In this document: positions 29,160 through 40,187 of the stretch, one piece after another
How positions within the stretch are numbered: the stretch's first letter is position 1
Layout of the letters: each line of letters starts with the position of its first letter
NCBI GenBank assembly: GCA_945860945.1
Contig: CAMASG010000013.1
Coordinates: 1 to 45,137, forward strand
Reading direction: 5' to 3'
Source of the DNA: Akkermansia muciniphila
GTDB lineage: Bacteria; Verrucomicrobiota; Verrucomicrobiia; Limisphaerales; SIAT01
Length of the DNA stretch: 45,137 nt
Program-made: the position numbers and the translations under genes
Notes under the pieces: model-generated
Database searches by the model: none
What the model saw: the letters and a program-made list of their open reading frames with translations, nothing else
Told to the model about the DNA's origin: nothing

Positions 29160-30500
29160 ATGAGCAGGAGCACACAGGTTTCCCCGACTGCGGCACCGCC
29201 GCTGGAAAAGCAGACGACGGTGGGCAACTACTTCGTCTCGAATTATCCGCCGTTCTCGTTCTGGAAACCGGAGGCGTTGGGTGAGTTTCACGCTGCGCTC
29301 GAGAGTGCGCCGCGCGCGGACAACCCGCTCGGCATCTACGTCCACATTCCATTCTGCCGGAAGCGCTGCCACTTCTGCTATTTCCGCGTGTACACGGACA
29401 AAGATTCGGCGGCGATCAAGAGCTACATCGACGCGGTGATCCGCGAGTTGGATGGCTATGCCACGAAGCCCTTCATTGGCGGGCGCAAGCCGAGCTTCGT
29501 TTATTTCGGCGGCGGCACGCCGAGTTATCTTTCCGTGGATCAGCTCAAACATCTCGTCGGCGAGATGAAGAAGCGTCTGCCGTGGGACGCGATGGAGGAG
29601 GTCACGTTCGAGGCCGAGCCGGGCACGCTCACCGACCACAAGCTCAAGGCGATTCGCGAGCTGGGCATCACGCGGCTCTCGCTCGGCGTGGAGAATTTCG
29701 ACGACCACATCCTCGAGATCAACGGCCGCGCGCATCACAGCAAGGAAATCGGCCGGGCCTACGCTTACGCGCGTGAGATTGGTTTCCCGCAAATCAACAT
29801 CGACCTCATCGCCGGCATGGTGGAGGAGACCGATGCGAACTGGCACGAGTGCGTCCGCAAAACGATCGAGATGGTGCCCGACTCGGTGACGATTTACGAG
29901 ATGGAGATTCCGTACAACACGACGCTCTACAAGCAAATGCAGGCCGAGGGAAAACTCGTCGCGCCGGTCGCTGATTGGGACGTGAAGCGCGGCTGGGTGA
30001 GCTACGCATTCGATGAGCTGCAGAAGGCCGGCTACACCGTGGCCAGCGCTTACACTGCGGTGAAAAAGGCGGGGACGAAATTCGTCTATCGCGATCGTCT
30101 CTGGGCCGGCGCGGATTTGCTCGCGCTCGGCGTCGCGAGCTTTGGCCACATCAACGGCGTTCATTATCAGAACCACCACGACTTCGATCCGTATGTGCAG
30201 CGCGTGAACGCCGGCGAGCTGCCGGTCCACCGCGCGCTCACGCCCACGCCTGAGGAGCGCTATATTCGCGAGTTCATTTTGCAGCTCAAGCTCGGCCATG
30301 TGAGCCGCGCCTATTTCACGGAGAAGTTCGGCACCGATCCGTGCGCGCAGTTCGCCAAGCCGCTGCAGGCGCTCAAGGATTGGGGTTTTCTCGCGGAGGA
30401 AGGCGATCAACTGCGCCTCAATCGCGAAGGTCTTCTGCAAGTGGATCGGTTGCTGCACGAGTTTTTCCTGCCCGAACACCGCAGCGCCCGCTACGCCTGA
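29160..30500 (+). CDS. HemW/coproporphyrinogen-III-oxidase-like radical SAM protein
   Basis: IYVHIPFCRKRCHFCYFR (CX3CX2C); FVYFGGGTPSYLS; ITRLSLGVENFDDHILEINGRAH; INIDLIAGMVEET. Confidence 0.9.
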   Translation: MSRSTQVSPTAAPPLEKQTTVGNYFVSNYPPFSFWKPEALGEFHAALESAPRADNPLGIYVHIPFCRKRCHFCYFRVYTDKDSAAIKSYIDAVIRELDGYATKPFIGGRKPSFVYFGGGTPSYLSVDQLKHLVGEMKKRLPWDAMEEVTFEAEPGTLTDHKLKAIRELGITRLSLGVENFDDHILEINGRAHHSKEIGRAYAYAREIGFPQINIDLIAGMVEETDANWHECVRKTIEMVPDSVTIYEMEIPYNTTLYKQMQAEGKLVAPVADWDVKRGWVSYAFDELQKAGYTVASAYTAVKKAGTKFVYRDRLWAGADLLALGVASFGHINGVHYQNHHDFDPYVQRVNAGELPVHRALTPTPEERYIREFILQLKLGHVSRAYFTEKFGTDPCAQFAKPLQALKDWGFLAEEGDQLRLNREGLLQVDRLLHEFFLPEHRSARYA

Positions 30501-30502
30501 CC

Positions 30503-39800: not shown

Positions 39801-40187
39801 CAGAACACGTATCTCTCCACGTTCCAAGTGCTCGGCGGGCTCGGCCTGCTGCTCGGCAGCGCGGGTCTCGGCGTGCTGGTACTGCGCAACGTGCTCGAGC
39901 GTCGCGGTGAATTGGCGCTGCTGCTGGCGATTGGTTTCCGTGCGCGTGCGTTGCGGCGATTGGTGGTGAGCGAGCACGCGGTGTTGCTGCTGATCGGGTT
40001 GGCGACGGGCGTGGGCGCGGCGTTGGTGGCGGTGTTGCCGGTGTGGTTCAAGCCGGGCGCGCAGCCTCCGCCGCTCTCGCTCTGGCTCACGCTCGGCGCG
40101 GTGCTGGTGGCGGGATTGGTGTGGACGTGGGGCGCGACGATGCTGGCCTTGCGCGGGAATTTGCTGGATGCTCTGCGGAGCGAATAA
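36804..40187 (+). CDS. FtsX-like ABC transporter permease (1127 aa)
   Basis: MacB/FtsX-like TM segments ([56 protein letters not shown]); adjacent to the ATPase (start 1 nt after its stop). Confidence 0.9.
   Translation: [1127 protein letters not shown]

Follow-up and report, generated by a model that had tools for sequence, protein, structure and literature searches.

A conserved operon of Limisphaerales encoding a chorismate-lyase-fold protein and a halogenase-type flavoenzyme, and its possible role in an aromatic-acid pathway

Which described systems come closest to the operon analysed here? In bmp-type clusters, a chorismate lyase, a flavin halogenase and a P450 enzyme give rise to brominated phenols and a brominated biphenyldiol from chorismate (PMC10579414). 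A set of genes including that of EhpF turns phenazine-1,6-dicarboxylate into D-alanylgriseoluteic acid (PMC3175449), and GriC and GriD are named as a two-protein carboxylic acid reductase in work cited by PMC11429834. A cluster combining a chorismate lyase with a radical SAM enzyme and a halogenase was not described in the literature covered by our search, outside which most subscription journals lie. The system presented here is a new combination of known kinds of enzymes.

Extent and conservation of the operon

The gene set at 27840-40864 of the window, by which we mean the whole stretch of 45,137 nucleotides that was analysed, forms a genuine operon that is conserved and comprises at least ten genes read in one direction:

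27840..29126, + strand: secreted beta-propeller (BamB/PQQ-repeat), first gene (Pfam PF13570/PF13360)
29160..30500, + strand: HemN-like radical SAM enzyme with CxxxCxxC motif (PF04055 and HemN_C)
30503..31069, + strand: chorismate-lyase-fold protein, 188 aa (AF2 model, Foldseek, hhalign)
31073..32359, + strand: flavin-dependent halogenase-type enzyme (PF04820, 5.5e-35)
32356..33648, + strand: GT4 glycosyltransferase (PF00534, PF13692, PF13439)
33645..34094, + strand: 4HBT/YbgC-type thioesterase (PF13279, PF03061, TIGR00051)
34178..34747, + strand: small membrane protein, five predicted helices (conserved alignment A4)
34764..36047, + strand: PaaK/FlxY-like AMP-forming aryl-CoA ligase (PF00501, PF14535)
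36113..36802, + strand: Type VII ABC ATPase of LolD/YbbA type (TIGR02211, PRK10584)
36804..40187, + strand: FtsX/MacB-type permease, 1127 aa (PF02687 in two stretches, PF12704)
40193..40864, + strand: small secreted protein, probable last gene (syntenic in L021, L022 and L047)

The initial annotation had delimited a unit of nine open reading frames at 29160-40187, all of which lie on the + strand with the coordinates it gave apart from two starts: that of the ligase gene, placed at 34548, is corrected to 34764, and that of the small membrane protein is set to 34178. The tight junctions to which it drew attention (30500/30503, 31069/31073, 32359/32356 and 36802/36804) are real, and the GT4 and thioesterase genes overlap as well (33648/33645). 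While the co-directional run itself stands, its start at 29160 does not, as the propeller gene (27840-29126), 33 bp upstream of the radical SAM gene, had been missed; in most loci a syntenic propeller gene likewise precedes that of the radical SAM enzyme, and from this conserved order the unit starts at 27840. Its end is probably at about 40864, with the small secreted protein, which resembles the C-terminal part of a large propeller from the second locus discussed below (L188:5252-7750; BLASTP 8e-10). In a promoter scan, promoter-like sites were not commoner than in shuffled sequences; one such site directly precedes 27840. Directly upstream of the unit lies a zinc-type dehydrogenase gene (26700-27770), whose closest models are scyllo-inosose and threonine dehydrogenase, both far from reaching their cut-offs. 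The source genome assembly comprises 2.6 Mb at 94% completeness, and UbiA-family genes are present in it. Metagenome-assembled Pedosphaera/Limisphaerales genomes are its closest named relatives, which places it probably in Limisphaerales (Verrucomicrobiota).

Mapping of all genes by tblastn on 39 loci of relatives and 80 named loci revealed a fixed order of propeller, radical SAM enzyme, lyase-like protein, flavoenzyme, GT4, thioesterase, membrane protein and ligase, which dozens of loci, spread over many families of Limisphaerales, have kept, so that chance is excluded. The ABC and FtsX genes extend this order only in a subset, adjoining it in a minority of Limisphaerales loci, and in five contigs that carry a Planctomycetota or Phycisphaera label (L132, L133, L141, L142 and L151) the series runs through to the ABC gene, with FtsX detectable in four of them. 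The synteny of these gene families, whose absence would have refuted the initial reading, is thus found both across the families of Limisphaerales and in Planctomycetota. Of 58 relatives, 41 have the lyase-like gene, nearly every one representing a family of its own within the order; outside the order, just 11 among 288 further genomes of the phylum have it.

Several loci retain only the propeller, radical SAM and lyase-like genes side by side. The genes that relatives carry in between those for the radical SAM enzyme, the lyase-like protein and the flavoenzyme were considered as pathway enzymes and rejected, being of FG-GAP, subtilase, PSCyt/PSD1, FtsK-like and beta-helix types; they probably stand outside the system. 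In six loci (L093, L094, L095, L124, L138 and L148), the lyase-like gene is directly followed by genes for a 224-aa protein and an FtsK/SpoIIIE-like protein of about 1300 aa. Several metagenome-assembled genomes (MAGs; L072, L088, L093, L097 and others) carry the Limisphaerales-type operon under the labels Akkermansia muciniphila, Klebsiella pneumoniae or Proteobacteria, which look wrong.

Proteins of the operon

The 188-aa product of 30503..31069 had been called UbiC-like, and its AlphaFold model (pLDDT 94.3) does carry the chorismate-lyase fold. In Foldseek searches (TM 0.55-0.77), the best PDB match is the DUF98 protein AF1396 (2nwi; E 1e-7), with UbiC following at E 3e-4 (1fw9, matched along with 1g81, both product-bound structures) and many UTRA domains of similar fold ranking in between. 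At the sequence level the relationship is remote: an hmmsearch with the family yielded 2nwi as its sole match (E 0.019), hhalign aligned the family with E. coli UbiC at E 1e-4, the chorismate lyase Pfam models matched none of its 31 members, nothing relevant in Pfam was found for the single protein, and a search of the genome with PF04345 gave no match. Two residues, R80 and E179, are invariant across the 31 sequences. R80 falls on the position of UbiC Arg76 in the hhalign alignment, and E179 on that of Glu155, an assignment made via 2nwi and, for UbiC, by eye; in UbiC, these two residues and Arg91 have roles in the active site. At the position of Arg91, the family has Ala or Val near the aligned site (A97 in the protein of the window) instead of Arg. 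The protein represents a chorismate-lyase-fold family that is new in sequence. As the ligand-binding UTRA domains share the fold, it is likely, though not certainly, an enzyme.

For the neighbouring flavoprotein (31073..32359), the choice lay between a halogenase-type and a geranylgeranyl-reductase-type enzyme, and both model scores and PDB sequence matches decide for the former, as first proposed. The NCBIfam model of CmlS scores 213 bits against 125 bits for geranylgeranyl reductase (GG-red-SF), an order that rules the latter out. The best PDB matches are the halogenases 8zop, 3e1t, PltA, ChlB4 and CmlS, named halogenases accounting for eight of the top nine PDB sequences, and CndH is likewise among the halogenases matched. 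QhpG, LodB and GoxB also score against the protein. K80 is invariant in 24 sequences, and the WxWxIP motif is present in 69 of 70 orthologues; this motif is conserved in flavin-dependent halogenases and has been suggested to prevent monooxygenase function (PMC5945002). From these sequence features, the ring reaction of the enzyme would be halogenation, or else hydroxylation.

The radical SAM enzyme matches HemN (1olt) at 4e-45 and the NocN methyltransferase at 1e-31, with the core including CxxxCxxC aligned, and the motif is present in all 95 orthologues. It reaches no NCBIfam equivalog cut-off and is therefore not a known HemN, HemW or HutW. The same applies more generally: since the Pfam and NCBIfam matches all remain below equivalog cut-offs, no protein of the operon is a known, named enzyme. 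The ligase obtains 191 bits with NF041878 (PaaK), below the cut-off of that model, and the ABC ATPase 273 bits with TIGR02211 and 222 bits with PRK10584 (YbbA), both below equivalog level. At the level of families, Pfam and NCBIfam bear out the earlier assignment of the ligase to the PaaK type, of the thioesterase to the 4HBT fold and of the glycosyltransferase to GT4. The small membrane protein (34178..34747) matches neither Pfam nor NCBIfam models, and its AF2 model, with five helices at pLDDT 63, is too poor for a fold search; its earlier designation as a DMT transporter was overstated and is kept here as a candidate only. As had been noted, the cluster contains no PKS or NRPS gene. An aryl-polyene or PKS cluster was rejected on these grounds, the unit being devoid of a ketosynthase and the single full ketosynthase of the genome lying on another contig.

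A second locus

Clustering of gene neighbourhoods uncovered further conserved genes on the upstream side. In Planctomycetota and part of the Verrucomicrobiota, the operon is preceded by genes for an EhpF-like adenylating enzyme, an aldehyde-dehydrogenase-like (ALDH-like) protein and an iron alcohol dehydrogenase (Fe-ADH), with a sodium symporter gene before them. The EhpF-like protein of a Planctomycetota locus (L132:2377-3465) aligns with EhpF (PDB 3l2k/3hgu) over its full length (residues 9-362; 1e-46), and the copy in our source genome is 80% identical to it. There, a second locus on contig C3 (L188) holds the EhpF-like, ALDH-like and Fe-ADH genes at C3:9432-13480, the first two of them at C3:9432-12262, and two large propeller genes lie ahead of these. 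Relatives show the arrangement of propeller, propeller, (symporter), EhpF, ALDH and Fe-ADH again, fused to the operon in the case of L055, L160 and L161. The pairs EhpF/EhpG in griseoluteic acid and GriC/GriD in grixazone formation likewise consist of an adenylating enzyme and an ALDH-like partner acting on an aromatic acid. On the 3' side of the Fe-ADH gene at the second locus lie CbiX-like, prephenate dehydrogenase-like (tyrA) and EPSP-synthase-like (aroA) genes, their names being read from sequence; from the first large propeller to these genes, the locus spans L188:5252-17016.

The genes of the two loci also travel together across 58 genomes, as compared by Fisher tests that ignore phylogeny. 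EhpF and the lyase-like gene are both present in 37 genomes and both absent from 17; four have the lyase-like gene only, three of these being less than 80% complete, and none has EhpF only (3e-11). For the flavoenzyme the corresponding numbers are 39 with both, 17 with neither, two with the lyase-like gene only and none with the flavoenzyme only (9e-13), and for the ligase 38, 16, three with the lyase-like gene only and one with the ligase only. A ligase orthologue (56%) without lyase-like, flavoenzyme and EhpF orthologues is present in one relative only (G041:C185:27094-28362).

These patterns bear on a modular explanation, by which at least two independent modules merely adjoin each other: a core of the radical SAM and lyase-fold genes, a set of tailoring genes, and a YbbAP-like lipid exporter with no relation to either. 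It would account for loci that hold just the propeller, radical SAM and lyase-like genes, with the remainder located elsewhere or interrupted by FtsK-like and PSCyt genes, and for the patchy adjacency of ABC and FtsX. However, genomes with the core also tend to have orthologues of the flavoenzyme, the ligase and EhpF, even where these are unlinked to it, and in Planctomycetota all form a single continuous cluster, which makes independent modules an unlikely explanation.

Proposed pathway and relation to known systems

What, then, might the two loci produce together? We lean, if only slightly, towards a reading of the compared sequences in which the operon would be one half of a conserved, envelope-directed pathway for a chorismate-derived aromatic acid. 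The initial annotation had pointed largely in this direction in proposing a hydroxybenzoate-type acid that is tailored, activated and exported, its DMT label aside; the second, unlinked half, with the EhpF-like, ALDH-like and Fe-ADH proteins and the two large propellers, had escaped it. From the families, folds and motifs of the proteins and from the synteny and co-occurrence of their genes, we infer all substrates and reactions, as well as the sequence of the steps, as follows. The UbiC/DUF98-fold enzyme would remove pyruvate from chorismate to leave a hydroxybenzoate, whose ring could be halogenated (or hydroxylated) by the halogenase-type flavoenzyme, and to which the HemN-like radical SAM enzyme may add a carbon-centred modification, plausibly a methylation. 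The PaaK-type ligase would convert the acid to its CoA thioester, with the 4HBT enzyme serving in thioester hydrolysis or proof-reading. The EhpF-type adenylating enzyme of the second locus and its ALDH-like partner would reduce the acid to the aldehyde, and the Fe-ADH the aldehyde to a benzylic alcohol. The GT4 enzyme might glycosylate the product, and the Type VII ABC/FtsX pair could extract it, as a hydrophobic compound, from the inner membrane and move it toward the periplasm, in which the beta-propeller proteins would act.

Several points speak against such a pathway. The lyase-like family is matched by no chorismate lyase Pfam model and has no Arg at the Arg91 position, flavoenzymes of that fold can be hydroxylases, the genes beyond the propeller/radical SAM/lyase-like core may be separate modules, and ABC and FtsX adjoin the rest in the smaller part of the Limisphaerales loci. 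Moreover, conservation throughout nearly a whole order is unusual for a specialised metabolite. It would suit a housekeeping cofactor, and the enzymes might accordingly make a small aromatic, quinone-like redox cofactor or ligand for the co-conserved propellers rather than a secreted metabolite, as up to three PQQ-repeat propellers accompany them whether the loci are split or fused, and as QhpG, LodB and GoxB, which are active in quinone-cofactor formation, are among the matches of the flavoprotein. However, this protein is clearly nearer to the halogenases (213 versus 137 bits), a GT4 enzyme, thioesterase and exporter would be unexpected, and propellers abound in Verrucomicrobiota and Planctomycetota and may be scaffolds; we thus regard a cofactor as improbable. 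More improbable still is a catabolic unit importing aromatic alcohols or acids by the sodium symporter for processing by Fe-ADH, ALDH-like enzyme, ligase and thioesterase: the SSF symporter, Fe-ADH, ALDH-like and CoA ligase genes do stand together in the fused clusters, but no ring-cleaving enzyme was seen, the adenylating enzyme is of the EhpF type and not a degradative ligase, and the lyase-fold gene, radical SAM enzyme, halogenase-type enzyme and GT4 indicate synthesis.

Returning to the aromatic-acid pathway, its occurrence in the majority of families of an order abundant in soil and freshwater, and in another phylum, would make it probably important to these poorly cultured bacteria. Lacking a PKS or NRPS core gene, the operon could be overlooked by rule-based cluster finders. 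With the split into two loci resolved by the fused clusters of Planctomycetota, the list of enzymes is defined and the product directly testable. As a more doubtful extension, one might tentatively envisage a hitherto undescribed core pathway of the PVC bacteria from chorismate to an aryl alcohol, with about 16 genes, split over two loci in Limisphaerales and continuous in Planctomycetota, that furnishes a new and widely shared halogenated or methylated envelope component or cofactor.

How does this compare with the systems named at the outset? Like the bmp-type clusters (PMC10579414), the operon places a chorismate-lyase-type protein beside a flavin halogenase-type enzyme without PKS or NRPS. 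The lyase-like protein belongs to a different sequence family than the bmp-type lyase, the coupling P450 has no counterpart among ten proteins of the window, and the radical SAM enzyme, GT4, ligase, thioesterase, EhpF-type reduction, propellers and Type VII exporter are additions to the bmp-type set. With UbiC and the DUF98/Rv2949c chorismate pyruvate-lyases, the protein has the fold and the core Arg and Glu in common, whereas it matches no family model and is without the Arg91 of UbiC. In contrast to EhpF/EhpG and GriC/GriD, the pair at the second locus accompanies a lyase-like gene and an Fe-ADH, and neither a phenazine nor an aminohydroxybenzoate system. Finally, the operon resembles the YbbAP Type VII ABC system (PMC12646458) in its LolD/YbbA-type ATPase and large FtsX permease, while here the partner genes are those of aromatic-acid enzymes.
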